Source: Heliocidaris erythrogramma (Eukaryota; Echinodermata; Echinoidea; Camarodonta; Echinometridae). From it: DNA of 64,000 bases. Shown piece after piece: positions 5,415 to 59,163 of this stretch; the stretch's first letter is position 1; each line of letters begins with the position of its first letter. Made by a program: the position numbers and the translations under genes. The notes below the pieces were generated by a model. It was not told where the DNA came from. It made no database searches and saw nothing but the letters and a program-made list of their open reading frames with translations. The stretch covers positions 12,729,168 to 12,793,167 of the forward strand of contig CM046869.1 in assembly GCA_025617745.1 (NCBI GenBank). The letters are read 5' to 3'.

Positions 5415-5448
5415 TAGTGCGGAAAATGTTGATCATCGTGGTAGTACA

Positions 5449-18700: not shown

Positions 18701-21700
18701 TTATTAAGCTTTACTATTTACCTTAAAAAGCAGAACTGAAAGTAAATAAAGTTGAAAAACAATATGAAATGTAGGAAATGAGCATTTTAAAGGTTGTGAG
18801 CCGTGTGTGCTGTAATGGCGTGATCCTACATGTATACAATTGTAATAGAATAGCCTAATTGGAGTACCCTAAACGTCTTTGGGCTAAGTAAAGTATGTAA
18901 TAATTTGTTGTACTGTAAAATACATTTATTTAGTTTGCACATGCTGGTCGACATATTAGAACAGGAACTATATCTCTAGTATGATACAGTATAATTGATT
19001 AGTAGGTTACAATAAGAATCTAAAGCTAAAGAACTGCACTTGGTATTTAATTCAGGGGGCAGTTATCCAGGGGGTAGTTGACCAGTGATGATAGTCGATG
19101 GGAAAGTGCGTAGACTGAAAAACAAATTGTTTTTCAACCATATTTCTTGCTTTGTAGGTCCGTTACTAGAGGGTTAGACTAGTTTTTTTTTTTTTTTTTT
19201 TTTTTTGCCCATTTCAAAGAAGGCCGTCTTTGCCCAATCACAATCACATATTTGTAAACAAATTTTTAGGCATTTTACTCCCAGTGTTAAAGATCGCATG
19301 CTCGATCTGTAATGAAAAACACAAGTAAGAAAAAATTGGAACCAGCGGGATTCGAACCTGTCATCTACTGCTTGCCGGGCAGCGACTTAACCACCAGGCT
19401 ATTCTGGTTCACGGCCAAGTCACGATGAACTGGAATCAAATACCCAAGATCCTCTTCTTTCTGACTCATTAATAACTTTAACACTGGGAGTAAAAATGCC
19501 TAAAAACTTGTTTACAAATTAAATTCCTCCCATCAAGCTTCTTCGTTTACTAACCACAATCACATAGTTTACGATTCATAATTCTATCTTACGCTGGTGT
19601 TCAAATAGGCCCAAAATGGCAAACAAATTACTTTCCAGGAATTTGGAGGCCTGGAAATTTCAAATATGAATCAAAATTATTTCATTAAATCTAATTTGCT
19701 CTAATATATTGATATTTGACAAATTATACATGAAAGATATTCTGTGGCGGCCAGTCTGAAAACTAGGCAGAACAGGCCTAAAGGACCCACTTTGAGATGG
19801 CTCAATATACACTTTCTCTCATAACACATTTACTTGTATGTACATGTGCGCCAGGTTTGGTGCTTCTATCACAAAATGCACTAATCAGATTAAGATAATA
19901 CGTTATTTTAAACATACATTTATAATACATACAGGATAATGTTATCCGATCATAATTAAGATAATTTCAAATATATTCTGCAATGCAATAATTTTATCAA
20001 ACATTTTATGTATAAAATTTGCTTATTTGGAGAGAAAAAAATGACACATAAAGCTTTTTCCAGTTTGAGACCTGGAAACTTAAATACGATTACAACGCAA
20101 TTATTTAAACTTACATTTTGTAAAAATATATTAATTTTTGACCAAATATACAGTAAAAATTCCGGGTGGCTCAATATCCATGTTTGCTTAGAACATTTTC
20201 ACCTACCTGTGTGCCAAATTTGGTGCTTTTATCATAAAATGCACAATTGGCCTGGAATTTGTTGCTATGCTGCCCCACTACATGTGTAATGCCGAAAGTT
20301 CATTATTCCAAAATGTAATAGAACCTATGATAAACGAACCTTAAAAAAAAAGGAGTACCCCCTGACATGTCAATGAAATATCATGAAATCTACCGCCTAT
20401 CAAATGGTTCCGTCTGCATGATCTGAAATGAAAACCAATTAATAAGTGCTCTCTAGTGTAACTAACTGATAGCCATTGTATTGGACATTAATTCCCTAAA
20501 AATTCAAACGATTAGCCTTTCATGCTTAGCGGGAGAAGTAGGCGTAATTTTTATCGTATTATTTTTTTTAGCTTAATGACCACACGGTTAAGTTCAAAGG
20601 GACGTGTTTGAAAGGATTTTATCAACAGTGGCGGCACCAGGATTTTTAAAGTGGGGGGGGGGGCAAATGGGGGGCAAAAGAAAATGCTGGGGGGCAAGGG
20701 CAGACAAAAATTTTTTCCACCCTTTTATCTTTTTTCACTCCGAAAATTATTGGGGGGCAACTGGGGGAGCAAAGCTTCTGAATGGGGGGGGGGGGGGGGG
20801 GGCAAATGCCCCCATGCCCCCCCCCCCCCCCTGGTGCCGCCACTGTTTATCCAGTGTAAAAATTTGCTATACCTGGATGCGCACAATACAAGTTCGTTTT
20901 GTCTCTCGCTTCTTCTGGCGTTCTGACGTCATATTCAGGATGGTCACGTGGTAGATACTTGGGAACCAACTTGACTACCTCCCCAGTTTGTTCAGAGACG
21001 CCATAGGGACAGATGTCCGTAGGTATAAGAGGGCATGTTCCATCACCAAAAGTACCTGTTACACAATGTAGGATCGATCATATCGATGAAGTTAGCGTAT
21101 GCAAATTATGAGCAAAAAGGGCTCATTTTATTTCCAGTACCTGAAATGGCACTTTCCCTGCAACCAGTGGGCTGTTTTGCATGGACATATTCAAAGTTAT
21201 GTAAGACAAGAAATATTAATGCTATGTTTATTCAATTATCTACAAAGATAAATGGATAGTTCTTCAACACAGACATACCTTGTTTAAGTTACCATTTAAA
21301 GAATAAGAAGGATAGATTTTTTTCCTTCGGCTCCATTAAACCCACTGAAATTCTTCTAATCACTATCGTATGTGGAAACAACAGTACTATAGACTCACTG
21401 AACCAAAAAATAAACACAACAACAAACGAACTCACCATGAATGTACTGCTTCAATAGGAAGAGTAGAACTGCAACCTTCAAATGCTATTTAAATAATTAG
21501 AAATATAATACAATAGAAAATTACGTAACATGCAATAGTACATGAAATCTTACCTGACCAGCTGGGTCAAAACTTACAATTCTATATTCATTGGATAAAT
21601 CCTCACAAATGCGTTTAAAAATTGATTAAAATTTTATCAATCTTTATCCTGTATAACATAATGTCCTCCTCACACGGAGCAGAGTACACCCTTTCAAATA

Positions 21701-23474: not shown

Positions 23475-25835
23475 TTTCTCAACCATTAAATATTTCATCA
23501 TTAAAAATCGTGTGAATAATTAAAGTATCATTATTAACCATATCAGACATCTGAGCGATGCAATTTTTTTACATTTTGTCCCGGCTTTGCCAAGCTAACA
23601 TAACTAAGGGCCGATAAATTTAAAAATTGTGTATTGAGCGGTTTCGCTCTGGACGTCTGATTATGTTAATAATAATGATAAAATCCGACTGGCTACTTTC
23701 GGGGGATACCACATTCATTGCCCTCACTAGAATAGTTGTTGTTCTGTGTAGAGATCGATGGATTATCTGAATTTTTCTTGCCATTTAAGTTCATGATCAA
23801 CTGTAAACTCATCTCTGTAAACTGATCATAAAAGGGAAACCACTAGTAAACGACTAGTTTAATAAATTTTTACATTTGCGGTTGACATGTTTTGACATGT
23901 GGTAAGGGGTGTTTCAATATTTTAGGGATTTTAATGGTCAGGAAAACCTCTCACACACGCGTACACGCTCACAAACACAGACATCTCATAATAACTTATC
24001 TTACACGGGTACATTATGGAAGCAATGAGTTTTTACATTTGCTGTCGACGTGTTATGACATTTGTGGTAAAAACGGAAATTTTTACATTTGTAGGCGAAA
24101 TGTTTTTACATTTGTGGTTAAACCGATTTTTACATTTTTGGGCGATTTTTATTACATTTGTGGTTGACATATTATGACATTTGTGGTTATTTTGACATTT
24201 GCGGGTGCAACGTTTTTACATTTGTGGTTGATTTTTACATTTGTGGGCTCTACATCCCCTCCCCAGTCAGATGGCAACTTTGTTTCCCTCTTTTTGTGGA
24301 GGTATCTCGTTAGGCCAAGTTATATTTACCGTCGAAACATTTCAGTTTTCATTTTTTCATTTATTTATTTCCATCAATACATGTACATGTAGTTTTAAAA
24401 ATACATACAAATCGAAATTAGAACAAAATATAAAATTACAAGATAGAGGAGACAGCAAGAAAAGCAAGGAGCTTTATAAAAAGCTGCCACTTTTTGGTGT
24501 ATACATAAATAAATACATAAAATGGGCATACTGGATGGATAGAATGTAGATAACATCATAACTCCATCATAACATCGCGATGTTATGTTGAGTCGCTTAG
24601 CAACTATGATGGCGTAGATTAACATCGTGTCACGGCGAGTCATTACTAATTCTCAAACCCATTCTCTAATCATAATTCAAAGGGAAGGAGGGGGAAAGGG
24701 TTCCTGTGGAATGTCTTTAGGGTTAAAACTTTGCTTGAGTGGCTGGTTTTACACTCGCTAAATTCCCCCGTTTTACTGCAGTATGTTCAAGATTAGTATT
24801 TGAAAAAGATCTTCATGAAGTATATATACGTATTTGACTATAGATTTATGATATTGTAAACAATGTGCAATATGAATGGAATCAATAAAGTATAAATACT
24901 ACTAATGTTCATAGCGTATATTGAGTAATGTTTTCGTTTCATGTATATATATATATATATATTACTTACTAAAGAATTTTTATAGTGTTAGTGCTTATAA
25001 CAAAAACACTGGCTTATGATCTGATGGTGATCCTGAATGATTAATTCATTGTCATAACGCATGGAGTATTAAACGAGGCCAACCTTTACTAGCTTTTGCT
25101 ATATGTTAGCTCCATTTACCGCATGCATACTTCAATGTCATGCCCTAATTCTATGTAACTTTGAATTGCTTGGTAACAAATGAATACAGTATAATACAAA
25201 TATTACAATTCTTTTGGTATGCCTTCTCTCTCTATCTTTATCTCTCTTTCTTTCATATCTCTTTTTCCCCATTAGTCAAAATATGCATCGCATCAGTGAA
25301 ATCATAATAAACTAATATGCACCCGACCGCCAAGCATGACTTTGAATGCCGTTTTGGCCTTTTTAGACTAAGCCAAGATAAATTAGTTTTTGCGCGCTGG
25401 AAAATGAGCGACTAAAAATTCGGTGAACCGAAAAGACTAAACAGGATAGACAAGGTTGCTTGAATATGAGAGTGATAAAATTAATTTAACAAGATAGTTT
25501 TGCAAACTCGATTGAGAAAACCTATTATTGGCATATCTATCATATTCATGTAGATTTAACAAAAGAGCTCATGAAGATCTATTAACATAATGTAGTGTTC
25601 GAATGAACTTAGAACTGTTCTGTGCATTTATACGCCCAAATGTTCTTGAATTTAAATATATTAGTCTTAGAAATTTATTGTTCATTTAGAAAATATAGGA
25701 TGACATGAAGCTTTTCAATGACACCATTCACTATATCATTATAGGTACTTTCGTTCGTTTTCAATCTTGTATATTCAATTACTATATTATATATAACATT
25801 TACCTGCTATACAAACGTAACGCAGGCAAATAATA
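23475..25835. repeat. tandem unit 1 (about 2.36 kb)
   Basis: First of three direct copies beginning TTCTCAACCATTAAATATTT. It contains a minisatellite of TTTTTACATTTGTGGT words (about 24035-24250), longer here than in the other units; a perfect palindrome CATAACATCGCGATGTTATG (about 24568); and an AT run. Short frames of 61-102 codons recur in each unit, without domain similarity. Confidence 0.85.
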
Positions 25836-28071
25836 TTCTCAACCATTAAATATTTCATCATTAAAAATCGCGTTAATAATTAAAGTATTATTATGAACCA
25901 TATCAGACATCTGAGCGATACATTTTTTTTACAGTTTGTCCCGGCTTTGCCAAGCTAACATAACTGCGGGCCGATAAATTTAAAAATTGTGTATTGAGCG
26001 GGTTTCGCTCTGGACGTCTAATTATGTTAATAATAATGATAAAATCCGACTGGCTACTTTCGGGGGATACCACATTCATTGCCCTCACTAGAATAGTTGT
26101 TGTTCTGTGTAGAGATCGATGGATTATCTGAATTTTTCTTGCCATTTAAGTTCATGATCAACTGTAAACTGATCATAAAAGGGAAACCACTAGTAAACGA
26201 CTAGTTTAATAAATTTTTACATTTGCGGTTGACATGTTTTGACATGTGGTAAGGGGTGTTTCAATATTTTAGGGATTTTAATGGTCAGGAAAACCTCTCA
26301 CACACGCATACACGCTCACAAACACAGACATCTCATAATAACTTATCTTACACGGGTACATTATGCAAGCAATGTGTTTTTACATTTGTGGTTGACATGT
26401 TATGACATTTTTGACATATTATGACATTTTTGACATTTGCGGGTGCAACGTTTTTACATTTGTGGTTGATTTTTACATTTGTGGGCTCTACATCCCCTCC
26501 CCAGTCAGATGGCAACTTTGTTTCCCTCTTTTTGTGGAGGTATCTCGTTAGGCCAAGTTATATTTACCGTCGAAACATTTCAGTTTTCATTTTTTCATTT
26601 ATTTATTTCCATCAATACATGTACATGTAGTTTTAAAAATACATACAAATCGAAATTAGAACAAAATATAAAATTACAAGATAGAGGAAACAGCAAGAAA
26701 AGCAAGGAGCTTTATAAAAAGCTGCCACCTTTTGGTGTATACATAAATAAATACATAAAATGGGCATACTGGATGGATAGAATGTAGATAACATCATAAC
26801 TCCATCATAACATCGCGATGTTATGTTGAGTCGCTTAGCAACTATGATGGCGTAGATTAACATCGTGTCACGGCGAGTCATTACTAATTCTCAAACCCAT
26901 TCTCTAATCATAATTCAAAGGGAAGGAGGGGGAAAGGGTTCCTGTGGAATGTCTTTAGGGTTAAAACTTTGCTTGAGTGGCTGGTTTTACACTCGCTAAA
27001 TTCCCCCGTTTTACTGCAGTATGTTCAAGATTAGTATTTGAAAAAGATCTTCATGAAGTATATATACGTATTTGACTATAGATTTATGATATTGTAAACA
27101 ATGTGCAATATGAATGGAATCAATAAAGTATAAATACTACTAATGTTCATAGCGTGTATTGAGTAATGTTTTCGTTTCATGTATATATATATATATATAT
27201 TACTTACTAAAGAATTTTTATAGTGTTAGTGCTTAACAAAAACACTGGCTTATGATCTGATGGTGATCCTGAATGATTAATTCATTGTCATAACGCATGG
27301 AGTATTAAACGAGGCCAACCTTTACTAGCTTTTGCTATATGTTAGCTCCATTTACCGCATGCATACTTCAATGTCATGCCCTAATTCTATGTAACTTTGA
27401 ATTGCTTGGTAACAAATGAATACAGTATAATACAAATATTACAATTCTTTTGGTATGCCTTCTCTCTCTATCTTTATCTCTCTTTCTTTCATATCTCTTT
27501 TTCCCCATTAGTCAAAATATGCATCGCATCAGTGAAATCATAATAAACTAATATGCACCCGACCGCCAAGCATGACTTTGAATGCCGTTTTGGCCTTTTT
27601 AGACTAAGCCAAGATAAATTAGTTTTTGCGCGCTGGAAAATGAGCGACTAAAAATTCGGTGAACCGAAAAGACTAAACAGGATAGACAAGGTTGCTTGAA
27701 TATGAGAGTGATAAAATTAATTTAACAAGATAGTTTTGCAAACTCGATTGAGAAAACCTATTATTGGCATATCTATCATATTCATGTAGATTTAACAAAA
27801 GAGCTCATGAAGATCTATTAACATAATGTAGTGTTCGAATGAACTTAGAACTGTTCTGTGCATTTATACGCCCAAATGTTCTTGAATTTAAATATATTAG
27901 TCTTAGAAATTTATTGTTCATTTAGAAAATATAGGATGACATGAAGCTTTTCAATGACACCATTCACTATATCATTATAGGTACTTTCGTTCGTTTTCAA
28001 TCTTGTATATTCAATTACTATATTATATATAACATTTACCTGCTATACAAACGTAACGCAGGCAAATAATA
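25836..28071. repeat. tandem unit 2 (2236 bp)
   Basis: Near-identical to unit 1 with few substitutions, but with a shortened TTTTTACATTTGTGG minisatellite. The junction with unit 1 contains TACAAACGTAACGCAGGCAA. High identity implies recent duplication or homogenisation. Confidence 0.85.
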
Positions 28072-29418
28072 TTCTCAACCATTAAATATTTCATCATTAA
28101 AAATCGCGTTAATAATTAAAGTATTATTATGAACCATATCAGACATCTGAGCGATACATTTTTTTTACAGTTTGTCCCGGCTTTGCCAAGCTAACATAAC
28201 TGCGGGCCGATAAATTTAAAAATTGTGTATTGAGCGGGTTTCGCTCTGGACGTCTAATTATGTTAATAATAATGATAAAATCCGACTGGCTACTTTCGGG
28301 GGATACCACATTCATTGCCCTCACTAGAATAGTTGTTGTTCTGTGTAGAGATCGATGGATTATCTGAATTTTTCTTGCCATTTAAGTTCATGATCAACTG
28401 TAAACTGATCATAAAAGGGAAACCACTAGTAAACGACTAGTTTAATAAATTTTTACATTTGCGGTTGACATGTTTTGACATGTGGTAAGGGGTGTTTCAA
28501 TATTTTAGGGATTTTAATGGTCAGGAAAACCTCTCACACACGCATACACGCTCGCAAACACAGACATCTCATAATAACTTATCTTACACGGGTACATTAT
28601 GCAAGCAATGTGTTTTTACATTTGTGGTTGACATATTATGACATTTTTGACATATTATGACATTTTTGACATTTGCGGGTGCAATGTTTTTACATTTGTG
28701 GTTGATTTTTACATTTGTGGGCTCTACATCCCCTCCCCAATCAGATGGCAACTTTGTTTCCCTCTTTTTGTGGAGGTATCTCGTTAGGCCAAGTTATATT
28801 TACCGTCGAAACATTTCAGTTTTCATTTTTTCATTTATTTATTTATTTCCATCAATACATGTACATGTAGTTTTAAAAATACATACAAATCGAAATTAGA
28901 ACAAAATATAAAATTACAAGATAGAGGAGACAGCAAGAAAAGCAAGGAGCTTTATAAAAAGCTGCCACCTTTGGTGTATACATAAATAAATACATAAAAT
29001 GGGCATACTGGATGGATAGAATGTAGATAACATCATAACTCCATCATAACATCGCGATGTTATGATGAATGTCGCTTAGCACCTCTGATGGCGTAGATTA
29101 ACATCGTGTCACGGCTAGTCATTACTAATTCTCAAACCCATTCTCAAATCATAATTCAAAGGGAAGGAGGGGGAAAGGGTTCCTGTGGAATGTCTTTAGG
29201 GTTAAAACTTTGCTTGAGTGGCTGGTTTTACACTCACTAAATTCCCCGTTTTACTGCAGTATGTTCAAGATTAGTATTTGAAAAAGATCTTCATGAGGTA
29301 TATATACGTATTTGACTATAGATTTATGATATTGTAAACAATGTGCAATATGAATGGAATCAATAAAGTATAAATACTACTAATGTTCATAGTGTATATT
29401 GAATAATGTTTTCGTTTC

Positions 29419-29482
<64 letters not shown>

Positions 29483-29545
29483 CTTCCTAAAGAATTTTTA
29501 TAGTGTTAGTGCTTAACAAAAACACTGGCTTATGATCTGATGGTG
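28072..29545. repeat. tandem unit 3, 5' part
   Basis: Third copy of the unit, with an expanded AT run at about 29423-29480. It is cut after CTGATGGTG by the foldback element at 29546. The unit resumes at 31709, is cut by the LINE and the 39933-41063 segment, and ends at about 41391. Confidence 0.85.
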
Positions 29546-31708
29546 GTTTACAGCCCTATAGCTAGAAGGTCCGATAGTTAGCGGGTCCGATAGACCGACG
29601 CCCAATAGATAGAAGGTTCGATAGACCGAATGTACGAGAGGGTCCAATAGACAGACGGTTCTATAGACCGAATCGGCGGAGGGTCCGATAATCCGAAGAT
29701 TCTATAGATCGAATGTCCAACGGGGTCCGATAGTAAGAAGGTCCGATAGATAGAAGGTTCGATAGACCGAATCGGCAAAAGGGTCCGATAGTCCGAAGGT
29801 TCAGTAGGGGTCCGATAGTTAGAAGGTCCGATAGACCGACAATAACGTAAAAAGGTAAAATAAGTGGATACAATAATTTTTTAATAGTTTTATCTCATAA
29901 AAGGGTAATTGCCTTACCTTCTTCTATGTGTATTGTAATAAACCGATGCACTAGGTCTGTAGGCCCACCCCCCCCAAAAAAAAAAAATAAATAAATAAAT
30001 GAGGAACTTATACATGTTAAAAGTATTTTTATCAGAGCATCATCATCATCACCGTGGGGCGGGGGTGGTCCACCTCAGCCCCCGGTTAATTTTGACACTT
30101 AACCGATGTATTGGCAATGGGGAACGCTGACCATTTTTGAAACATGGAAATCTAATTACATGTATATGGTGCACACTAAAGTCCCGAGGCCCATCATGCC
30201 CGAAACATTTTTTTCTAGTGGAGCAAGCTGAGGAAAGGGCGTCCCCTTCTATTACAAGTGTTTTTTTAAACACAGAAATCTTATGGGGTGCACACTTTAT
30301 CGTTAAATTTTCATTAAAAGTAACAAAAGATAAGATTCTGACAACAAAAGATTCTGACCGATAAAAATGAAATTGTTTCAATTCGGCCCTACCACCTTCT
30401 TGGGATGGGGGCGTTTCCATTTTTCTTTTTGAGGGTTGTCAGGTGATATTTTCCTACCAGCTATGATGTCAGCTTTTATACTTTATATTACTACTATCTT
30501 GTGGCAAATTTTAGTCTGTGGACGGGTAAATTATACCACTTTTTTTTGGGGGGGGGGGAGGGTGGGGGTGGGGGAATTCGATAATAGTCAGATACCTCAC
30601 TGCCCGAATATTATGATATTCGGGATTCTTGTTGCTGCAGGACGTAAGAGATGCTTGCTGCAAGAAACAATCTAAGGTTAGATTCTTGATTGTATGAGCG
30701 AGCAAAGCGAGCGAACGAGAGAGAGAGAGAAAAAAAAAGAATTTTGTATCATCAGAATAGGTTCTAGTGTATTTTTATTCCGTTCTCATAATCTATGTAA
30801 CATGTTATTGGCATCTTCCGTTCTCATATTGGGAAGAGACTATTGGTCACAGGCCATTATTTCTGAAAATTCATCTCTTTAGCGCCTTTAGTTATGTTGC
30901 TAACATTATTTGAGTAGAAAAATAGCATAACATTTGCTAGAGATTCAAGATGCAAACCAAATAACTTCCATAAGAATATGACTTATTAATATAATTGGCA
31001 TTGGTTTATATACCCAAATATGGCGATTATATTAATAACTAATATCAATAATGAAAATATAATGGGCATTGGTAAATAACCATAATAATGCTAGTTAGCG
31101 AAGTTTTTAATTTCTGTTTTCTTCTCTTTCCGTTCTAATTTCTTCTTTTCTTTTTCTCTTCTTTTCCTTTCTTTTCTTTTCTTCTTTCCTTTTCAACCTC
31201 TTCCTTTTTGGCCTTTTCTTTGGTTGGAACCCCCTTTTCAGGCATGAAAAGTGGGAGGGGGAGGGTATTCCCGCCCCACATTTCAAAACATCTGAAAACA
31301 TAACGCCCCACTTATTTTAACCACTTATTTTTTTACCCACTTATCATTTTATCCACTATTTTACCCTTTTTACGTATTTATTGTCGGTCTAACGGACCTT
31401 CTAACTATCGGACCCCTACTGAACCTTCGGACTATCGGACCCTTTTGCCGAGTCGGTCTATATATAGAACCTTCTGTCTATTGGACCCTCATGTACATTC
31501 GGAATATCGAACCTTCTGACTATCGGACCCGTTGGTCATTCGATCTATAGAACCTTCGGACTATTGGACCCTCCTGTCGATTCGGTTTATAGAACCTTCT
31601 GTCTACTGGACCCTCTCGTACATTCGGTCTATCGAACCTTCTATCTATTGGGTGTCGGTCTATCGGACCCGCTAACTATCGGACCTTCTAGCTATAGGGA
31701 TGACCCCA
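29546..31708. mobile_element. foldback transposon with subrepeat-built terminal inverted repeats
   Basis: 2163 bp, flanked by the 8-bp duplication TGATGGTG (29538-29545 and 31709-31716), whose unfilled site is visible in tandem units 1 and 2. The arms (about 29554-29860 and 31385-31700) are inverted copies of an array of words such as GGTCCGATAGACCGA and GGTTCGATAGACCGAAT. The outermost bases differ (GTTTACAG versus TGGGGTCAT) before the shared CCCTATAGCTAGAAGG. The 1.5-kb core shows no transposase. Confidence 0.75.
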
Positions 31709-31905
31709 TGATGGTGATCCTGAATGATTAATTCATTGTCATAACGCATGGAGTATTAAACGAGGCCAACCTTTACTAGCTCTTACTATATGTTAGCTCC
31801 ATTTACCGCATGCATACTTCATTGTCATGCCCTAATTCTATACGTAACTTTGAATTGCTTGGTAACAAATGAATACAGTATAATACAAATATTACAATGT
31901 GAATT
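31643..31905. repeat. 263-bp direct repeat, left of LINE
   Basis: Matches 39678-39940 at every position I compared. It consists of the last 66 bp of the foldback element plus 197 bp of tandem unit 3 and its junction. It directly abuts the 5' end of the LINE and so behaves as a very long target-site duplication. Confidence 0.8.
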
Positions 31906-31972
31906 CGGACCTATGCATTCGTAGCAACCAGACGTATATTTCACGCGCTCCCGCTATTTGACTGATATGTGA

Positions 31973-33157
31973 TTGAACAGCCTAACCCCGACTCTGATAG
32001 AGATGAATAGTGAGAAATCATATAACTTTCGATCATCAACGGCTTCAAAAACACTACCTCCCAGGCCTAGGAAAATGTCAACGCAAAATTCGAATTCGAC
32101 AGCGACTTCGAAAGCCAATACTTCGCATTCGTGCATCATTAGAAGGGAATCCACCTCCCGATCCCCTTCTGGCGGGAACGAGAGTCACGTGACGGAACCC
32201 GCGAACTCGAGTATTGTCAGTAATGCCGTGCCTACGGGTCAAGGGGACGTAATCAACCAAATGAAAGCTATGTTCTCGCAGCTTACTACACAAATGAACG
32301 CTAGATTTGACGCCATTGGTGAGGATGTGAGTCTCATAAAACACGATTTAGCTGAAACCAAAAGAGCCGTTATAGAATTGGAAGGAGCTGTCAACTTCAA
32401 CGCGGAGAAAATCAAAGCCATCGAAAAGGATTATCTACCAAAAGTGAAAGATGAGTTAGAGAAGAAAAGTAAGGAAATTGAGGAAAAGATCATATTGCTA
32501 GAACTTCACCAGCGAAAGCAAAACCTCTTGGTATATGGGGTGGGGGAGAGGAAAAATGAGAACATATATGCCGTTGTTAACGATGTATTGAGCTTCTTCC
32601 TCAAAATCCCCGCGACCGAGGCCGGTAAAGTTCTATTGGTCAACGCCCACCGTCTCCCCGCCCCCCAGCACGGTATCGGCAATGGAGCCAAGATACGCCC
32701 CATTATCATCCGATTTGTCAATATGTCGGACCGTGATCGCCTATTGAACGCCTTCGAGGATTCTCACAGACAACACCACACTGGAACAACCACTATCGAA
32801 CCCACCGGTCAGCAACCTTCTCAACCTACCACCCAGGGTCAACCCCCCGTACCACCAGGGATACAACAGCAGCAAGCAGAGCAGCTTACCAACGAGCCAC
32901 CGCAGCAACTTGCCGGCATCGGGCCGACACAAGCACTCAACCAATTGTTCGCCCGTGTTACGATACGGACGGACCTACCACCCAACATGAAACGTGAACG
33001 CGGCAAGCTAGCAGCAGTAGCATACAAGCTTCGAAAAGAGCAGAAACTGTCAACCCGCATTCGAATCAATGGTATCAATCTCTACCTTCAAACTCGGAAG
33101 CCATCTACGACTGGAGGTCAATCAAGTTGGAAAAACTGGGATAATGAAGATAAGTAA
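31973..33157 (+). CDS. LINE ORF1, L1-ORF1p-like RNA-binding protein
   Basis: 394 residues. A basic Ser-rich N terminus is followed by a heptad-rich stretch (about residues 90-190, with QLTTQMNARFDAI, ELEKKSKEIEEKI), predicted coiled coil. Then comes an RRM-like core starting NLLVYGVGERKNENIY and ending IIIRFVNMSDRDRLL. A Gln/Pro-rich insertion (about residues 275-310) interrupts it before a C-terminal segment with NMKRERGKLAAVAYKLRKEQ. Coiled coil, RRM and C-terminal domain in this order match L1-type ORF1 proteins, which trimerise on the element RNA. The frame is intact. A second Met follows ten residues after the first, so the exact start is uncertain. Confidence 0.8.
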   Translation: MNSLTPTLIEMNSEKSYNFRSSTASKTLPPRPRKMSTQNSNSTATSKANTSHSCIIRRESTSRSPSGGNESHVTEPANSSIVSNAVPTGQGDVINQMKAMFSQLTTQMNARFDAIGEDVSLIKHDLAETKRAVIELEGAVNFNAEKIKAIEKDYLPKVKDELEKKSKEIEEKIILLELHQRKQNLLVYGVGERKNENIYAVVNDVLSFFLKIPATEAGKVLLVNAHRLPAPQHGIGNGAKIRPIIIRFVNMSDRDRLLNAFEDSHRQHHTGTTTIEPTGQQPSQPTTQGQPPVPPGIQQQQAEQLTNEPPQQLAGIGPTQALNQLFARVTIRTDLPPNMKRERGKLAAVAYKLRKEQKLSTRIRINGINLYLQTRKPSTTGGQSSWKNWDNEDK

Positions 33158-33361
33158 TCTTTCTTTCTATCAAGAATAAATTCAAACTGTAAGAAGAAAC
33201 CATAAGACGAATATATATATATGTATATATAAGAAATAAATCAGTTAAGAAGAAACTGAAGTAAAGAATTGAAAGAAAGAACTTGGACACTAAGAAGAAA
33301 CGGAATGGAAACATAATAAATATATTCATCTTGATAAAATAATTTATATATTTCGCCATAT

Positions 33362-35087
33362 ATATTATGATGCTGTTACATGATGCTGTCATGTTACCGC
33401 AGTGTCATTACTGCAATTTTGTCCTTGTTATTGTTTCTTTTCTGTCAGAATGAAAATGCATTCAGTGTCAATTTATATTGTCAATTTGTAGCGTAACTTG
33501 TGTAGCTGCAAAACATGGATTTCCCTCCATCTCAGAAAAATTTACAGCTGATTTATTCACCCTTAATTTCAAAGCAGGTCGCCACTCCGCATCTGGGTCA
33601 GGCCGCTGAGGTATTTTCTCCTAAATTGGTCGTTTTTGTCGTCTAATCATGCATGCCTCCACCCATTATCAGTGTTTATTATGTTCTTTCCCCTTCATCA
33701 TGGCATTGTTTTGTCTACATAGCCACCCCCCCCCCCGTCATATATTACAACCCACCTCCATCGCTTCTGTATACAATGTTATGTTTTACTGCTCTTAGTG
33801 GACGTTCTATTAATATTTTTATTATATTGTTCCACACGTGCCTACCAAATGACAGTTTTCCGTAATTTATTTCAAATCATGTATGAATTTATTTTCATGC
33901 AAGTATATATTTTCTTTTGCTTTTTAATTTACTTGTTTGTTAATTATGAGTACTTTTCCAGTATTTGTTTTTTTGTTTTTTGTTTTGTTTTTGTTTTTGT
34001 TTTTTATAGCAATTTTTTTTCTCTTGCATCTCTAGAGAATGTGAGCGTTACCTTCCTCCAGCCCTCATGATATATTTACCTTTTTTTTTCCTTTTGTAAA
34101 TATATAATCGTACATAGTTCTCGATGTTATTTTTGTTTTGCTATGATCATAGTTATCAATTGAAATATTTTATAGACGATGAATATAATTCTTGCTATTG
34201 ACATTTAATGCTCTATTTGCAATGTACTTATTTATACTATACAACCGTCCAGAGGAAAAAGTTTGAATGAATTGCATCAATTGAATACTGACGTTTTGTA
34301 CTTGTTTTTTTGTTTTTTGCTCGCACATTTATTATTATCTCATATTATTATATTTTATAATATTGTAATTACACTATACCTCAATATGATATGCCCAAGG
34401 CTATTCCATTTCATTTCATTTTGTCTGTCTTTTTTTTGTTTTGTTTTGTTTTATATTTTTTTCCCGGTATATATTATGATGCTGTTACATGATGCTGTCA
34501 TGTTGCCGCAATGTTATTGCTGTAATTTTGTCCTTGTTATTGTTTCTTTTCTGTCAGAATGAAAATGCATTCAGTGTCAATTTATATTGTCAATTTGTAG
34601 CGTAACTTGTGTAGCTGCAAAACATGGATTTCCATCCATCTCAGAAAAATTTACAGCTGATTTATTCACCCTTAATTTCAAAGCAGGTCGCCACTCCGCA
34701 TCTGGGTCAGGCCGCTGAGGTATTTTCTCTTAAATTGGTCGTTTTTGTCGTCTAATCATGCATGCCTCCACCCATTATCAGTGTTTATTATGTTCTTTCC
34801 CCTTCATCATGGCATTGTTTTGTCTACATAGCCACCCCCCCCCCCCGTCATATACTACAACCCACCTCCATCGCTTCTGTATACAATGTTATGTTTTACT
34901 GCTCTTAGTGGACGTTCTATTAATATTTTTATTATATTGTTCCACACGTGCCTACCAAATGACAGTTTTCCGTAATTTATTTCAAATCATGTATGAATTT
35001 ATTTTCATGCAAGTATATATTTTCTTTTGCTTTTTAATTTACTTGTTTGTTAATTATGAGTACTTTTCCAGTATTTGTTTTTTTGTT

Positions 35088-35118
<31 letters not shown>

Positions 35119-35580
35119 TGTTTTTGTTTTTTATAGCAATTTTTTTCTCTTGCATCTCTAGAGAATGTGAGCGTTACCTTCCTCCAGCCCTCATGATATA
35201 TTTACCTTTTTTTTCCTTTTGTAAATATATAATCGTACGTAGTTCTCGATGTTATTTTTGTTTTGCTATGATCATAGTTATCAATTGAAATATTTTATAG
35301 ACGATGAATATAATTCTTGCTATTGACATTTAATGCTCTATTTGCAATGTACTTATTTATACTATACAACCGTCCAGAGGAAAAAGTTTGAATGAATTGC
35401 ATCAATTGAATACTGATGTTTTGTACTTGTTTTTTTGTTTTTTGCTCGCACATTTATTATTATCTCATATTATTATATTTTATAATATTGTAATTACACT
35501 ATACCTCAATATGATATGCCCTAGGCTATTCCATTTCATTTCATTTTGTCTGTCTTTTTTTTTTTTTTTTTTTTTTTCCC
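33362..35580. repeat. two tandem 1109-bp copies between ORF1 and ORF2
   Basis: The segment starting ATATTATGATGCTGTTACAT at 33362 repeats at 34471 with few differences (length changes are in the T-rich runs). Each copy has a GTCGCCACTCCGCATCTGGG block, a poly-C tract and TTTTGTTTTTG runs, and no credible gene. Hydrophobic open frames are a result of T-richness. Confidence 0.85.
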
Positions 35581-36009
35581 GTTTTATATATATGTATATG
35601 TTTCTATATTATGTCTGTTTTTGGTTTCTCTTTTTATTTTAAATTGTTCTATTGTTCTATTTGTTTCTTCATCTAAGGGAGTCGCGTTGAATTTGCGTCG
35701 CATTTGCAGTATGTCTAGTTGCGTTTTTGTTGATTTAATCGGTTATTTTTTGTTCAAGCCTACGAAGATTTCCTTCAGTATGAATTTTTCTGTCATAGTC
35801 TATTTTGTATGTATATATGTTACCATTTTCTATTCGACCTACTACATCATTCATTTGATGTTTCTGTACATGATATTCAACTTCAATTTTTCTCTTTCTC
35901 AGCAACCTGCGACTGTACTTTTGTTAATTCGCGCTAAGCATTACGTCAGACACGTATTTGTTTTATTCACTATTATTTATTATCACACTTTAGTATCAAC
36001 CATTAAACC

Positions 36010-38718
36010 ATGGCTGATGATATAGCTGATAATATAGCATTCAACTCCCTTAATGATGATGACCTTTTTGACCTGTTTAGACCATCCCTGAATGATATTA
36101 ATATTGACACTCAAACTGGTAATTATGATAGTATTATTGTTGATTCATTTAATTCTTCATCCGAAGAATTATCTTTTGATTTTCATACTGAAGACCCAGC
36201 CCAAACTAATTCTTTAACTAAATATGTAACTGACAATCAATTTAAACATATAATGGCAGATTTTAGACTGGATACCTTTTCTTTGTTACATTTGAATATA
36301 AGAAGTCTAAATAAACATTTTGATGAATTGCAGTTACTTTTAGATAATTCAGCCCAACGTCTCCCTTCTATAATCGGCCTCACAGAAACCTGGTTGTCCT
36401 CTGACCCTAACCCACCCTTTGCTCTTCGTGATTATGATTTTATTTTTAATAGTAGACAGGATAGATCAGGGGGTGGAGTGGGTCTATATATTTCTAAGGA
36501 TTATAATTATAATATTTGTCAAGAAATTACATTAATGAATAATGTAATAGAATCTCTATTTATTGAAATTATTGTTCCAGGTCATACAAATATAATTGTT
36601 GGTGTAGTATATCGATCACCAAGTAATAACTCACAAGACTTTTTTATACAATTGACTGGTATAGTTAAAAATTCTTTATTTGATAATAAAGATTGCTTCG
36701 TTATGGGTGATTTTAATATCAATTTATTGCAACACGACACTAATAATGCATCGCAGGAGTTTCTTGAGATATTCCTATCTGCTTCTTTCTTGCCTCTAAT
36801 TTCTAAACCCACCCGTGTGGTTAATCACTCTGCTACATTAATCGACAATATTTTTAGTAATGTAATACCGCACCCTGACTCATGTGTTGTTCTTTCCGAT
36901 ATAACTGACCACTACCCTATATGTGCTCATTATAAAATATCTCATTCTGTTAAAAATGGTGGACCCCTTCCCTCAAGACGTCGAGTTACACCAGAAACTT
37001 TAGCGCGGCTCGGTGCCAGTTTAGAACAAGTTGATTGGTCTGACGTACACAATAGTAATGATGTTAATATTTCATATGAACATTTTTTGAATAATTTTAA
37101 TGAAAAATTAGACATTTATATCCCTGTTGTAAGAGACAAACGTAATTATAAAGTTTCTCCTCGACTTCCTTGGATTACTAAATCTCTATTACGATCCATT
37201 AATAGAAAAAATAGATTATATTATACATATAAATTGAAACGTACAGGTCATGCTAAATTTAAATATACTTCTTATAAAAATATGCTGACTAAAATTTTAC
37301 GTTTTGAGAAAAAAAAATATTTTATGAATCGTTTGGAATTATATAAGCATGATATGCAAAATACATGGAAAATTTTAAAACAGGCAATGAATTTATTGAA
37401 TAATCGAATTGATATCACTAAAATTAAACACGATGGAAAGATTATTGAAGATCCTGGTAATATTGTTAATATTTTTAATTCGTACTTTTCTTCAATTGGG
37501 GAGACCCTTGCTCATGATATTCGACCGTCCGATAAACCCTTTGTTGATTTTTTAGGCCCCACAAATTCAGAATCTATATTTTTTGTCCCAACACATAGAA
37601 CTGAAATATTGGATATAGTTGCAAATTTGAATAAAAAGAAAAGTTCGGGCTCCGATGGCATCAATAATGTTATTCTGAAAGGCATCATACCGTCTATCGT
37701 CGATCCCTTGGTGCATATATTTAATTTATCTTTGTTAAATGGTGTAGTACCCGACATTATGAAAATTGCAAAAGTTATTCCTTTATTTAAAAAAGGGGAC
37801 AGATTAGTTCTTAATAATTATCGCCCTATTTCTCTTTTGTCTTCCCTTTCAAAAGTCTTAGAAAAAATTATTTATAAAAGAACAATTGCTTTTTTGAAAA
37901 AACATAATATTATCAGTGATTCTCAGTTTGGATTTCGGGAGAACCACAGCACTTCTCATGCCTTATTGTCATTTGTAGATAAAGTTGTTCATGCCCTCGA
38001 TTCATCATCTCATATGATCGGTATCTTCCTGGACTATTCCAAGGCCTTTGACACGATTAACCACAACATTTTACTTTATAAACTTTCCCATTATGGTATA
38101 CGCGGGAAGGCCTTGGAGTGGTTCAGGAGCTACCTAACCAACAGAAAACAATATGTTTATTTAAATGGTCATAGCTCAGAACTTCATCATACAAACTGCG
38201 GAGTTCCCCAAGGTAGTCTATTGGGACCGCTTCTCTTTATATTGTATATTAATGATTTTCATAGATCATCTAATATTTTGTCTTTCATATTGTTTGCTGA
38301 TGATACGAATTTATTTTTCTCGCATAGTGACCCTCATTATTTAATACAAACAGTCAATTTAGAATTGCGTAACCTTTCTCAATGGATACGAGCAAATAGG
38401 CTTTCTTTGAATTTACAAAAAACAAAATATATGCTTTTCAGTCATTCTTTAGTTTCTTTACCAGGCAATATAATTTTTGATGATTCTCCTTTAGATAAAG
38501 TTTCTGATATTAAATTTTTAGGAGTTATGATTGATGATAAACTTTCATGGCGACTTCATATAGATAGCATTTGTAAAACGGTCTCGCGTAACATTGGGAT
38601 TATAAATAGATTAAAGACGCACTTTCCATTAAATTCCTTACTTACATTATATTCGTCATTAATTTTACCGTACTTAAATTATGGATTGTTGACTTGGGGT
38701 AACGCATGTCATTATTAG
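36010..38718 (+). CDS. LINE ORF2: AP-like endonuclease and reverse transcriptase
   Basis: 902 residues. Residues about 90-310 form an exonuclease-endonuclease-phosphatase domain: LNIRSLN, GLTETWL with the catalytic Glu, GGGVGLYI, YRSPSNN, MGDFN (232-236), TLIDNIF and SDITDHYP. Residues about 520-830 are the reverse transcriptase: IPLFKKGDR, NNYRPISLLSSLSKVLEKII, FGFRENHST, DYSKAFDTINH, GVPQGSLLGPLLF and the active-site FADD (762-765). These nick the target and prime cDNA synthesis. The frame ends prematurely at WGNACHY; the remaining C terminus continues in another frame from 38706. Confidence 0.9.
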   Translation: MADDIADNIAFNSLNDDDLFDLFRPSLNDINIDTQTGNYDSIIVDSFNSSSEELSFDFHTEDPAQTNSLTKYVTDNQFKHIMADFRLDTFSLLHLNIRSLNKHFDELQLLLDNSAQRLPSIIGLTETWLSSDPNPPFALRDYDFIFNSRQDRSGGGVGLYISKDYNYNICQEITLMNNVIESLFIEIIVPGHTNIIVGVVYRSPSNNSQDFFIQLTGIVKNSLFDNKDCFVMGDFNINLLQHDTNNASQEFLEIFLSASFLPLISKPTRVVNHSATLIDNIFSNVIPHPDSCVVLSDITDHYPICAHYKISHSVKNGGPLPSRRRVTPETLARLGASLEQVDWSDVHNSNDVNISYEHFLNNFNEKLDIYIPVVRDKRNYKVSPRLPWITKSLLRSINRKNRLYYTYKLKRTGHAKFKYTSYKNMLTKILRFEKKKYFMNRLELYKHDMQNTWKILKQAMNLLNNRIDITKIKHDGKIIEDPGNIVNIFNSYFSSIGETLAHDIRPSDKPFVDFLGPTNSESIFFVPTHRTEILDIVANLNKKKSSGSDGINNVILKGIIPSIVDPLVHIFNLSLLNGVVPDIMKIAKVIPLFKKGDRLVLNNYRPISLLSSLSKVLEKIIYKRTIAFLKKHNIISDSQFGFRENHSTSHALLSFVDKVVHALDSSSHMIGIFLDYSKAFDTINHNILLYKLSHYGIRGKALEWFRSYLTNRKQYVYLNGHSSELHHTNCGVPQGSLLGPLLFILYINDFHRSSNILSFILFADDTNLFFSHSDPHYLIQTVNLELRNLSQWIRANRLSLNLQKTKYMLFSHSLVSLPGNIIFDDSPLDKVSDIKFLGVMIDDKLSWRLHIDSICKTVSRNIGIINRLKTHFPLNSLLTLYSSLILPYLNYGLLTWGNACHY

Positions 38719-39122
38719 ACAAATTGTTATTATTACAGAAGAAGACCCTCCGAATAATTTGTCATACAACTTTCCGCGCCCATACAGACCGTTTATTTTT
38801 TGATAATAAAATTATGAAAGTAACAGATTTATATTGGTATCAGTTAGGTCAGTTTATGTATAATTTTAATAATGATGCTTTGCCTGTAGTTTTTAAAAAC
38901 ATGTTTTTGAAAAATTGTTCACTTCATAAATATTCAACAAGACGTTCTGATGAATTACATTTACCCCTCTTTCGAAAAGTCCTGGCCCAAAATACATTCA
39001 TCTATGATGGTCCGAAATTTTGGAATTCCCTTTCTGAACACATTAAAAATGCCCCCTCTTTATATTCGTTTAAGAAAAGATTAAAGTTACATTTATTGAA
39101 ATCATACGCAGATGTTCATTAA
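38706..39122 (+). pseudogene. LINE ORF2 C-terminal part, out of frame
   Basis: 138 codons beginning SLLDKLLLLQKKTLRIICHT and ending with FWNSLSEHIKNAPSLYSFKK and KLHLL, the normal CR1/Jockey C-terminal tail. It lies in the minus-one frame relative to 36010-38718 and overlaps it by 13 bases, so a single-base loss near 38706 is the simplest explanation. This copy is probably unable to make full-length ORF2 unless by frameshifting, for which I see no slippery heptamer. Confidence 0.8.
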
Positions 39123-39677
39123 TGATTATGTTGTTATGATTGAATATTCTCACCCCTTTCCCATTGTCCGCTGTCCACTCTTCTTGTTTTGTGTTAAAAA
39201 GGTTATCATCAATGTCCATGAGTCGCTCAAATCATGATTTTTCTTTTTTTTTAAGCGTGCTTTTAATTAGTTCTGTTTCTCTCTTGGTCGAATAATCGTT
39301 ACTTTGTAACGTATTGTATAAGTTTCCCGATTCATACCCTATATCAAGTTTTGTTGTTTCTATGGTAGCTCTATTGTGTCCTTTTGAAGGTTCTCTTCGT
39401 AGGCATTGTACTGGTATTTTTTTGTTTTTTGTTTTTTTTTTGTTTTTTTTTAATTATATGATTTATTATTTTACTTTAATGTGTTTCGAGGGATCCTCAT
39501 TTTACAAGCTTCGGCTTTTTAGTGGATCCCTCCATTTCTGCAGATTTGTTAACTCCATACAATTATTTATTTGATTATTATGTTGATATATGTATACTAA
39601 CTTACTGAATAATGTTCTACATAATTATGTCAAAGTTTGTTTATCTGTGGAAATGAAAATAAATTGAATTGAATTGA
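39123..39677 (+). other. LINE 3' region and tail
   Basis: T-rich, ending GTGGAAATGAAAATAAATTG followed by ATTGA-type repeats. No gene. Confidence 0.7.
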
Positions 39678-39940
39678 ATCTATTGGGTGTCGGTCTATCG
39701 GACCCGCTAACTATCGGACCTTCTAGCTATAGGGATGACCCCATGATGGTGATCCTGAATGATTAATTCATTGTCATAACGCATGGAGTATTAAACGAGG
39801 CCAACCTTTACTAGCTCTTACTATATGTTAGCTCCATTTACCGCATGCATACTTCATTGTCATGCCCTAATTCTATACGTAACTTTGAATTGCTTGGTAA
39901 CAAATGAATACAGTATAATACAAATATTACAATGTGAATT
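39678..39940. repeat. 263-bp direct repeat, right of LINE
   Basis: Second copy of 31643-31905, beginning ATCTATTGGGTGTCGGTC and ending CAATGTGAATT. After it the pre-insertion sequence continues. Confidence 0.8.
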
Positions 39941-55228: not shown

Positions 55229-55250
55229 GGCAAGGAAAGGTCAGCCACCC

Positions 55251-55940
55251 CACTCATAGGTACATTCCTATACTTCGTGTGTATAATGTAGGCAGTCATA
55301 CACCTCATCTTTTTAAAACACAACTGCACAAAAGTCACCAATATTCACTCAAAATCGGCATTTAATTTTCAAAAACCGACCCCAAAATATCCAAGAAATA
55401 CAATAAATTCAACTCACCAATGTTGGAAAAGATATTTACAAAAATGAAATCCGCAATTTACTGTTGATTCTCGCGAAACGAGCTATCGGAGTCATTGTGT
55501 ACATTTCCTGGTCGCCGCGGGCGCTGACATCTCCCCAAAAGAGTTTTGTCCTCAAAAATTCGGTCCCTATGGCGTACACGGAAAAGTTCCGATTTTCTGT
55601 GTGCGCGATCGTAAAGATCGATGTGCCCTTGCGATCCCGAGTTTCTTCGTGGACAAAAATTATATTGGCCGATTTTAGTCTAAGACATCGGCAGTTTGTA
55701 AACAACACGCGATCGCGAAACAAATCGGCGGGGATTTCTCCGGTTTTGGACAAGATTTTGACTTTGGATTTTGCTGTAAATATCAAAAGTTCTTCCTAAC
55801 GGCCATTTGAGGTAGGAGTGAGATTTTTAAGGGCTGAATTTGAAAGCAAGTATTTAAAATATTTATCTTATTTTCCCCCCATACCTTTAGTACATGCGAC
55901 AGAAAATACCAACTATTTTACAGAAATGTACCCGGGAGTG
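55251..55940 (+). mobile_element. 690-bp DNA transposon, copy 1
   Basis: Ends CACTCATAGGTACATT and, inverted, CACTCCCGGGTACATTTC. Exact 8-bp duplication AGCCACCC (55243-55250 and 55941-55948). It contains a frame of about 111 codons on one strand and 116 on the other (55464-55799 and 55436-55786), neither with a recognisable domain. Non-autonomous, hAT-like by duplication length. Confidence 0.8.
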
Positions 55941-55948
55941 AGCCACCC

Positions 55949-56162
55949 TATTATACTTGAAAAGGGAGTGCGACAAGGCAGCATCCTCTCCCCATCCCTG
56001 TACACCCTCTTCATTGATCAACTGATTAAGATCCTCAGGGAGGAAGACCTGGGATGTCACTTCCTGGGCAGATACTGTGGAGTTGTTGTCCTGGCAGATG
56101 ATGTGGCTCTGCTGTCCACCTCGGCAAAAGAACTGGGAGAAATGCTAAACGTCACCAGTAAC
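55949..56162 (+). pseudogene. LINE reverse transcriptase core, part 1
   Basis: Reads IILEKGVRQGSILSP, YTLFIDQLIKIL, then the catalytic LADDVALLS and KELGEMLNV. G-[VN]-R-Q-G-S-x-L-S-P and the A-D-D box are reverse transcriptase motifs. It is followed immediately by transposon copy 2; the frame resumes at 56861. Confidence 0.75.
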
Positions 56163-56852
56163 CACTCATAGCTACATTCCTATACTTCGTGTGTATAATG
56201 TAGGCAGTCATACACCTCATCTTTTTAAAACACCACTGCACAAAAGTCACCAATATTCACTCAAAATCGGCATTTAATTTTCAAAAACCGACCCCAAAAT
56301 ATCCAAGAAATACAATAAATTCAACTCACCAATGTTGGAAAAGATATTTTCAAAAATCAAATCCGTAATTTACTGTTGATTCTCGCGAAACGAGCTATCG
56401 GAGTCATTGTGTACATTTCCTGGTCGCCGCGGGCGCTGACATCTCCCCAAAAGAGTTTTGTCCTCAAAAATTCGGTCCCTATGGCATACACGGAAAAGTT
56501 CCGATTTTCTGTGTGCGCGATCGTAAAGATCGATGTGCGCTTGCGATCCCAAGTTTCTTCGTGGACAAAAATTGTATTGGCCGATTTTAGTCTAAGACAT
56601 CGGCAGTTTGTAAACAACACGCGATCGCGAAACAAATCGGCGGGGATTTCTCCGGTTTTGGACAAGATTTTGACTTTGGATTTTGCTGAAAATATCAAAA
56701 GTTCTTCCTAACGGCCATTTGAGGTAGGAGTGAGATTTTTAAGGGCTGAATTTGAAAGCAAGTATTTAAAATATTTATCTTATTTTTTCCCCATACCTTT
56801 AGTACATGCGACAGAAAATACCAACTATTTTACAGAAATGTACCCGTGAGTG
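56163..56852 (+). mobile_element. 690-bp DNA transposon, copy 2
   Basis: Ends CACTCATAGCTACATT and, inverted, CACTCACGGGTACATTTC. Duplication CCAGTAAC (56155-56162 and 56853-56860). Same 690-bp length as the other two copies. It interrupts the LINE reverse transcriptase frame. Confidence 0.8.
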
Positions 56853-56860
56853 CCAGTAAC

Positions 56861-58033
56861 TACGCTAAGAGGTGGAAATACTCAATCAATCCATCCAAAA
56901 GTGCTATTGTGGTCTTCAACGAAAAGTGCATCCCACCAGAACAAAGGCAACACACATGGACACTCGGGAATGACCAAGCGATCACCAAAGTTGATCAACA
57001 CCCCCACCTAGGTATCACAAAGTCCTCTGTGCGTGTAGACCCTACTTCGGAAATCATAGCCAAGGGCCTCAAGACCTTCTATGCCCTCCACGGTGTAGGG
57101 GCATATACATCAGGCCTCTCCCCCCATCTATGTTCCAAGCTATGGGCAGTATATTGCATTCCCAGAATGCTGTACGGGACGTCAATTCTCAGTCTGAACT
57201 CCCATGAAATTGCACGTCTCAACACAGCCCAGTACAGCCTCTTCAAAAAGATCCTAGGCATCCCCCAAAGTGCTGCAAACGAATCTGTCTATCTATTCAC
57301 TGGCCTGATCCCTCTCTACTGCCAAATGGAGCTGAACAGCCTCCTTCTAGTAGGTCAGCTCTTCAATCTGCCCCCAAATCGATTCGAAAAAAGGACCCTT
57401 CTCCATGCAACCATCTCACGGGTGCCCCTCATTAAGGCGTGGGAGAAGATCCTATGGAAGTACAAGCTCCCAAGCCTAATGGAATTACCTATCCCCTACC
57501 CCAAATGGAAATCACTGGTTAAGAAAGCTGTCCACCAAGCAGTACTCCATGAGGTTTATGAGGCCATATCCACCAAATCTACGCTCTCCCTATGGAAAGC
57601 TCTGGATCAACTCCCATCTTCTTCATCGCTCTTCCCCCTAAGTCTAGCACCTCACCTACGCAAGGCACTGATTGCCAGATCCCAGCTGCTGACTCAAACT
57701 TACCCACTCCAAAAGCGTCTCTGCAAAATTGGCAAATCCAACGACCTAATATGCCCACTCTGCGGAGTGGAAGAAGAAGATGTCATTCACTTTGTATCCT
57801 CCTGCAGCTTCTTCCAGCCTCAACGATCTATCTTCATAGAGAACATCAACCAGCAAGTCCCGGAGATAGATATTCCCAGCAGCTTAGATGAAGACAACCC
57901 ACAGGCCTTTGCAAACCTCATCCTCCTCCCGAACCCAGCCCTCCCACACTCAGCAGCTAAATCCCTCATGACCCTCGCCCTTCGCTTCATTCTAAAAATT
58001 CACCTTATACGTGCCACCTCATGCCAAGACTAA
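56861..58033 (+). pseudogene. LINE reverse transcriptase end and C-terminal domain, part 2
   Basis: Starts YAKRWKYSINPSKSAIVVF, the thumb-side motif that follows the A-D-D box in LINEs. The tail carries CPLCGVEEEDVIHFVSSC, a Cys-x2-Cys...His-x4-Cys zinc-knuckle-like motif (about residues 307-324 counted from 56846) seen at the C terminus of several I/Jockey-group ORF2 proteins. The exact clade is not determined. The stop is at 58031-58033. GC and codon use are richer than for the LINE at 36010. Confidence 0.7.
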
Positions 58034-58465
58034 GCCCTCACTGACATATACTGAACGAGTCTGACCTTGCACATTTGCCATACCCCTCTTAACAGGCAGC
58101 GTGGTTAAGCTGATCTCCGACACCAACCGGAGGAAGAACAAGAAGAAGAAGAAGAAGTTGAGTAGGGAAGTCTCGTCTTTGTCGCCCGAGCTCCATCCAC
58201 CGGCTATTGCAAGAGTGTGTGTGCTAGTTAAACTTTGATCGCGCCCAACTCTTATTCATGCGCCGGATCTTACAAGAGACTTCCAACGGCGGAAGAATAT
58301 ATTTTGACCTATTCAATGTAGCCACAACAAAGTCTGAAGCGATGCAGATAATTTTTAGAGGACGAGTTCGGACCATAAGTGACAGGTGAGTGGCGAGTTA
58401 ACAACGGTGGCGAGTCAATGCGCATGGACGTTAGCCAGGATCACATCAGCAAGCAATGGTCATAT

Positions 58466-59155
58466 CACTCACGGGTACATTACTGTAAAATAGTTGGTAT
58501 TTTCTGTCGCATGTACTAAAGGTATGGGGGGGAAATAAGATAAATATTTTAAATACTTGCTTTCAAATTCAGCCCTTAAAAATCTCACTCCTACCTCAAA
58601 TGGCCGTTAGGAAGAACTTTTGATATTTACAGCAAAATCCAAAGTCAAAATCTTGTCCAAAACCGGAGAAATCCCCGCCGATTTGTTTCGCGATCGCGTG
58701 TTGTTTACAAACTGCCGATGTCTTAGACTAAAATCGGCCAATATAATTTTTGTCCACGAAGAAACTCGGGATCGCAAGGGCACATCGATCTTTACGATCG
58801 CGCACACAGAAAATCGGAACTTTTCTGTGTACGCCATAGGGACCGAATTTTTGAGGACAAAACTCTTTTGGGGAGATGTCAGCGCCCGCGGCGACCAGGA
58901 AATGTACACAATGACTCCGATAGCTCGTTTCGCGAGAATCAACAGTAAATTGCGGATTTCATTTTTGTAAATATCTTTTCCAACATTGGTGAGTTGAATT
59001 TATTGTATTTCTTGGATATTTTGGGGTCGGTTTTTGAAAATTAAATGCCGATTTTGAGTGAATATTGGTGACTTTTGTGCAGTGGTGTTTTAAAAAGATG
59101 AGGTGTATGACTGCCTACATTATACACACGAAGTATAGGAATGTAGCTATGAGTG
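58466..59155 (-). mobile_element. 690-bp DNA transposon, copy 3 (inverted)
   Basis: Inverted relative to copies 1 and 2. Duplication GGTCATAT (58458-58465 and 59156-59163). Its 116-codon frame translates identically to that of copy 1, so the insertions are recent. Confidence 0.8.
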
Positions 59156-59163
59156 GGTCATAT

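Follow-up and report, generated by a model that had tools for sequence, protein, structure and literature searches.

R9, a non-long-terminal-repeat (non-LTR) retrotransposon of bdelloid rotifers described by Gladyshev and Arkhipova in 2009, reportedly produces a 126-bp target duplication. It is site-specific in ribosomal DNA, and the long duplication is a regular property of its family. Here we report a 263-bp direct repeat that exactly brackets a full-length long interspersed nuclear element (LINE) in the sea urchin Heliocidaris erythrogramma. The window, by which we mean the whole stretch of 64,000 nucleotides analysed, covers positions 12,729,168 to 12,793,167 of contig CM046869.1 (assembly GCA_025617745.1; C17:12729168-12793167 in our numbering). 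The locus is best explained, with a probability of about 0.8, by a single event of target-primed reverse transcription, in which the full-length LINE entered a tandem array, at its third unit, and duplicated 263 bp of the target site.

In the standard model of LINE insertion, the target is duplicated, joined bluntly or truncated depending on where the second cut falls with respect to the first (PMC2666801). According to the excerpted text of the same study, the zebrafish L2-clade element ZfL2-2 altered its target by at most 20 bp in 24 of 25 insertions in wild-type DT40 chicken cells, and created a 1228-bp duplication in one of the 25. Target duplications by L2-clade LINEs peak at 3-5 bp, and extra 5' nucleotides accompany about half of the ZfL2-2 copies (excerpts of PMC4245944). 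For human L1, the portion of PMC5223499 on which we draw states that duplications longer than 100 bp made up never more than 10% of the events in HeLa studies. The corresponding counts were 4/7 in XPA-deficient, 21/23 in XPC-deficient and 22/28 in XPD-deficient cells, and 3/9 in complemented XPD cells. Cells deficient in nucleotide excision repair (NER) yielded L1 duplications of hundreds to thousands of bp, the listed lengths including 242, 275 and 277 bp; the authors suggest an unrelated distant nick, for example at ends exposed by replication or repair (PMC5223499). The original prediction for our locus held that target-primed insertion normally duplicates tens of bases at most. As an upper limit this is too low, given the published duplications of hundreds to thousands of bp. 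Long target duplications are an already known minor outcome of LINE insertion, and the known mechanism stands unchanged.

The LINE occupies positions 31906 to 39679 of the window (7,774 bp, plus strand, as are the other LINE features, the array units and the repeat copies given below). The segment at 31643-31905 recurs without a mismatch at 39678-39940 (263/263 positions), and the match can be extended by 0 bases on either side. The 5' junction, at 31905/31906, reads GTGAATT/CGGACC and the 3' junction, at 39677/39678, reads ...TTGAATTGA/ATCTATT. The first two bases of the right copy (AT) can be assigned either to the LINE tail or to the target, so that the duplication measures 261 to 263 bp. 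Both copies adjoin native LINE ends, and the length exceeds the 20 bp above which we call a duplication long; the claim that the repeats match and abut the element was thus borne out. By length alone the 263-mer is only the third-longest exact direct repeat of the window, after runs of 1,320 and 426 bp that are common to units 1 and 2 of the tandem array. Its distinguishing trait is the exact bracketing of the LINE.

That the ends are native follows from searches of the host assembly (1.06 Gb). With the first 400 bp of the LINE as query, 12 matches were obtained, four of which start at query base 1 (the window copy, C18:25304227, C4:15471958 and C2:480436) and four at base 3 (C12:46420755, C12:46420289, C15:35999553 and C9:35951766). 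The remaining four comprise a second piece of the C2 copy and three distant matches (67-70%) starting at bases 91-94. With the last 500 bp as query, 37 of 41 matches extend to base 494-500. The shared start bases and shared tail ends place the family 5' end at 31906, within two bases, and the 3' end at the tail. A terminal repeat belonging to the LINE itself is ruled out, since the other full-length copies lack the 263-mer at their ends.

A search of the assembly with the 263-mer, in which 40 places were scored out of 960 candidates, recovered the full sequence only at the two window positions. Bases 67-256 occurred elsewhere only in array units 1 and 2, and the other 36 of the 40 scored places correspond to the foldback-derived part (approximately the first 67-73 bases). 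A chance match or a dispersed repeat captured on both sides is ruled out, the full 263-mer being found nowhere else among these 40. On the right, the flank from 39934 had no other match in the genome over its first 69 bp, after which a dispersed repeat begins; no known repeat therefore terminates at the border of the duplication. The structure is known here from the assembly sequence alone and its two repeat copies are identical, as would be expected if the contig passed from a LINE-bearing to an empty haplotype at the LINE tail. There is very little chance that such an artefact produced it. The assembly consists of 26 contigs with the longest reaching 78.6 Mb, and there is no N in the window, which suggests a long-read assembly; long reads would presumably span the 8.3 kb involved. 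Moreover, the overlap at the joint is only 2 bp, and a switch of haplotype precisely at the tail is unlikely.

The composition of the repeat identifies it as insertion-site DNA. Two tandem host units of 2,360 and 2,236 bp, containing neither foldback element nor LINE, lie at 23476-28071 and serve as paralogous empty sites. Unit 3 begins at 28072 and received both elements. The foldback element (29546-31708) is flanked by an 8-bp duplication, TGATGGTG, at 29538-29545 and 31709-31716. The left repeat copy starts with 60 bp of the right foldback arm (31643-31702), followed by the foldback end and unit DNA, in agreement with the proposal that the repeat spans a foldback tail and adjoining host sequence. 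Since the foldback arm is present in both repeat copies, the foldback element was inserted before the LINE. Within units 1 and 2, the stretches 25022-25209 and 27258-27445 are 97.4% identical to 31709-31898 and 39744-39933. This host part of the repeat (190 bp) occurs once in each LINE-free unit, and the repeat is not LINE sequence, as had been stated beforehand; the sites are paralogous, not allelic. It follows that the duplication arrived with, or after, the LINE insertion. The two repeat copies differ at 0 positions; the divergence of unit 3 from units 1 and 2 is 2.6% in the aligned part.

The array itself has a history of duplication. The exact 1,320-bp run is found at 24998-26317 and 27234-28553, indicating that the array was duplicated or homogenised recently. 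The region is thus rich in recent tandem duplications, some of them exact over 1,320 and 426 bp, and one could imagine a 263-bp tandem duplication already in place, at the exact border of which the LINE happened to insert. Such a course of events is exceedingly improbable: it requires insertion at one exact junction, and units 1 and 2 hold the host part once each.

We surveyed target duplications in 29 other copies of the family, namely four full-length pairs of end matches, 23 others and two more full-length pairs, on C2 (L046/L018, 32 kb apart) and C15 (about 23 kb apart), for which the pairing is assumed. Exact flanking repeats were sought allowing up to 4 extra 5' nucleotides and a start up to 35 bases after the last ATAAA of the tail. 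Longer fillers were covered by flank-versus-flank BLAST within 1.2-1.5 kb of right flank, a range that longer duplications would escape; if an older copy had a 263-bp duplication decayed to 85-95% identity, BLAST should still reveal it. Outside the count are seven rearranged copies (L017, L019, L029, L035, L037, L066 and L067), L038 (a duplicate locus of L034), three copies with unmatched 3' ends (C9:20344273, C9:21083675 and C15:36019945), L088-L091, in which the left border is shared or internal and there is no truncation point, and eight further match places. In some of the surveyed copies, above all L010, L023 and L025, the 5' border may reflect a later insertion and not the true point of truncation.

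An exact flanking repeat longer than 6 bp was present at the junctions of 0 of the 29 copies, and flank-versus-flank BLAST detected zero long duplications within its range. Matches of 4-6 bp were no larger than those in mismatched left and right flanks (756 pairs, largest 10). Three stretches considered as decayed long duplications, in L026 (62 bp, 84%), L030 (59 bp, 75%) and L069 (56 bp, 87.5%), are local repeats. A family-wide habit of long duplications is ruled out by these figures, and the survey of duplication lengths suggested with the original prediction has marked the window copy as the outlier.

Five empty sites could be read. Duplications of 4 bp were found in L040/L016 on C18 (TGAT, with 2 extra nucleotides), L069 on C11 (TGTA, with 8) and L026 on C22 (TAAT, with 2); those of L044/L024 on C9 and L030 on C5 measure 0-2 bp, with 51 and 0 extra nucleotides, respectively. 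For L026, L030 and L069 the empty sites are diverged local repeats, and the exact base counts come from short alignments. Overall, the duplication is 4 bp in three sites and 0-2 bp in two, and extra 5' nucleotides are present in four of the five. The 51 nucleotides (L044 1450-1500) stand between the target and the LINE 5' end and are lacking in two paralogous empty sites. On C4, the two flanks of L042/L022 can both be followed into a paralog of 83-93% identity, where they surround some 40 bp of low-complexity sequence; the joint itself is unreadable, and the continuity of the flanks shows that no long duplication exists there. The window copy, with 263 bp and no extra nucleotide, is a rare outlier of target-primed insertion. 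Its duplication is about sixty times the few bases that its relatives usually duplicate.

For the origin of this outlier we infer the following steps. The element endonuclease would nick the bottom strand within the right arm of the foldback element, near 31642/31643, and the TTGAA tail would prime at this first nick with at most 2 bp of pairing. Synthesis of complementary DNA (cDNA) would then run to the 5' end of the RNA. The usual joint, within about 4 bp, would be bypassed, and the LINE 5' end would instead be joined, without any added or shared base, at a point of the top strand 263 bp downstream where a second nick was made or a gap already existed. Repair synthesis over both 263-nucleotide single strands would yield the two copies of the repeat. 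We suggest only tentatively that the far end was not cut by the LINE, completion having occurred at a top-strand discontinuity already present 263 bp away. Candidates for this discontinuity would be an Okazaki-fragment gap or, next to the foldback element, a structure-linked nick.

The 5' joint also bears on a variant of the same insertion that does without a distant nick. Here the reverse transcriptase or a repair polymerase would switch template, 263 bp downstream, to the unbroken top strand and copy back to the first nick, ligation and replication then fixing the longer strand. This yields exactly the observed product, and the extra 5' nucleotides of other copies (51, 8, 2 and 2) show that joining with added sequence takes place in the family. 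However, the LINE start (CGGACC) and the target (AATTGA) share zero bases and are separated by zero filler, so that a template switch driven by annealing is unsupported, and we consider this route unlikely. Of the causes proposed beforehand, template switching at the target and a second nick at a wide spacing lead to the same product and are indistinguishable at this locus.

The other proposed cause, recombination between alleles, is less economical. In its explicit form the LINE first inserted at GTGAATT/AATTG with a short duplication, the usual readable outcome in the family, and its tail was later joined to the empty allele 263 bp upstream, by a replication template switch or by break repair through the 2-bp AT match. 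The structure produced would again be the observed one, and the joint does show the 2-bp match. But the breakpoint must fall within the terminal tail of about 17 nucleotides of a 7,774-bp element (by our estimate about 0.2% if breakpoints are uniform), and no intermediate allele is known; we regard this sequence of events as quite improbable.

Three observations weigh against a single insertion event with a long duplication. Units 1 and 2 diverge from unit 3 past 31898, so that a paralogous empty site is lacking for the right border of the repeat and for the 7 bases before it. The region forms long exact tandem duplications by other means, which makes it conceivable that the repeat did not originate with the LINE. 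Finally, the window copy is the only such event among 30 copies, itself included, and thus the family gives no sign of repeating long duplications.

The element is a non-LTR retrotransposon (LINE) with an APE-type endonuclease. Open reading frame (ORF) 2, at 36010-38718, matches the endonuclease and reverse transcriptase domains (PF03372, E-value = 1.6e-9; PF00078, E-value = 2.4e-38), and its nearest solved structures in the PDB are L1 ORF2p (3e-21) and R2 (7.5e-13). The family has no terminal repeats of its own, a constant 3' end and copies truncated at varied 5' positions; the absence of own terminal repeats holds for the window copy as well, the flanking repeat belonging to the insertion site. 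The C-terminal part of ORF2 continues in a different frame (38706-39122). A small deletion in this region of the window copy is absent from 12 other aligned copies. ORF1 (31973-33157, 394 codons) had no Pfam match at an E-value of 0.01, a single sub-threshold match being RAP1 (E-value = 0.13), and a PDB search returned nothing at an E-value of 0.1. The 3' tail (39659-39679) is made of TTGAA repeats. A search of viral contigs yielded no relative.

The whole spacer between ORF1 and ORF2 (33158-36009, about 2.8 kb) is T-rich. It holds a 1.1-kb tandem duplication, at 33345-35577, the halves of which (33345-34452 and 34454-35577) are 96.5% identical. Copy L010 aligns through both halves without a break and has the internal duplication too.

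Tandem duplications are found in other copies too. In L045 (positions 1366-2301; C12, near 46420289) a tandem duplication crosses the 5' junction of a full-length copy (470 bp aligned, 99.4%), so that 131 bp of flank and LINE bases 3-337 are present twice. LINE bases 5260-6172 (912 bp) occur four times in tandem in L025 with L057 and L065, on C13. In L088-L091 the last 105 bp or so of the LINE recur at 97-99% identity next to unrelated upstream sequence, and the upstream stretch of L090 is only 66% similar to ORF2; judging from these sequences, a 3' end may be common to different LINE families. Short repeats of the GATTATGAATAGCGACCC type form arrays that adjoin two LINE copies; they border L023 on either side, in opposite orientation, and L027 on the right.

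Elsewhere in the window, an identical 146-bp direct repeat is present at 913-1058 and 1202-1347; it belongs to a repeat that also occurs at 19250-19474. At 55249-59176, arms of 0.7 kb, 98-99% identical, two direct and one inverted, surround an ORF (56846-58033) that matches zf-RVT only weakly, its E-value of 5e-4 falling short of the Pfam cut-off. This is perhaps a LINE fragment in a foldback-like structure.

A literature search, which left most subscription papers outside its range, found no report of a long duplication at a natural germline copy of an L2-like LINE. The assets of the present case are a full-length element, a perfect repeat, a family baseline of 0-4 bp in the readable copies and a target most of which can be compared with a paralogous empty site. 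If the event is real, the rare long duplications of cultured cells also arise, and persist, in the germline of an animal. It would also show that a single LINE insertion can copy hundreds of bases of host DNA and set the copies 8 kb apart, as a substrate for later recombination. If, in addition, the far end was a pre-existing discontinuity, such copies would preserve, as natural records, strand breaks that existed while retrotransposition took place in the germline.

Among the known systems, R9 resembles the window LINE in that a non-LTR element made an exceptionally long duplication; here it is a single case in the family. Human L1 in NER-deficient cells is comparable for its duplications above 100 bp, ascribed in the text of PMC5223499 used here to a distant second nick. 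It differs in belonging to the L1 clade and in having been followed in repair-deficient cell lines. The five empty sites (4, 4, 4, 0-2 and 0-2 bp, with 2, 8, 2, 0 and 51 extra nucleotides in the order L040/L016, L069, L026, L030 and L044/L024) resemble the habit of L2-clade LINEs as given in the excerpts cited above. This likeness concerns the insertion habit only, at five sites; it is not diagnostic, and the window copy itself departs from the short-duplication habit. A close parallel is ZfL2-2, which has a similar insertion habit and, according to PMC2666801, rarely leaves a very long duplication. ZfL2-2 was an engineered element in chicken cells, whereas the window copy is natural and full-length, with a duplication of 263 bp.

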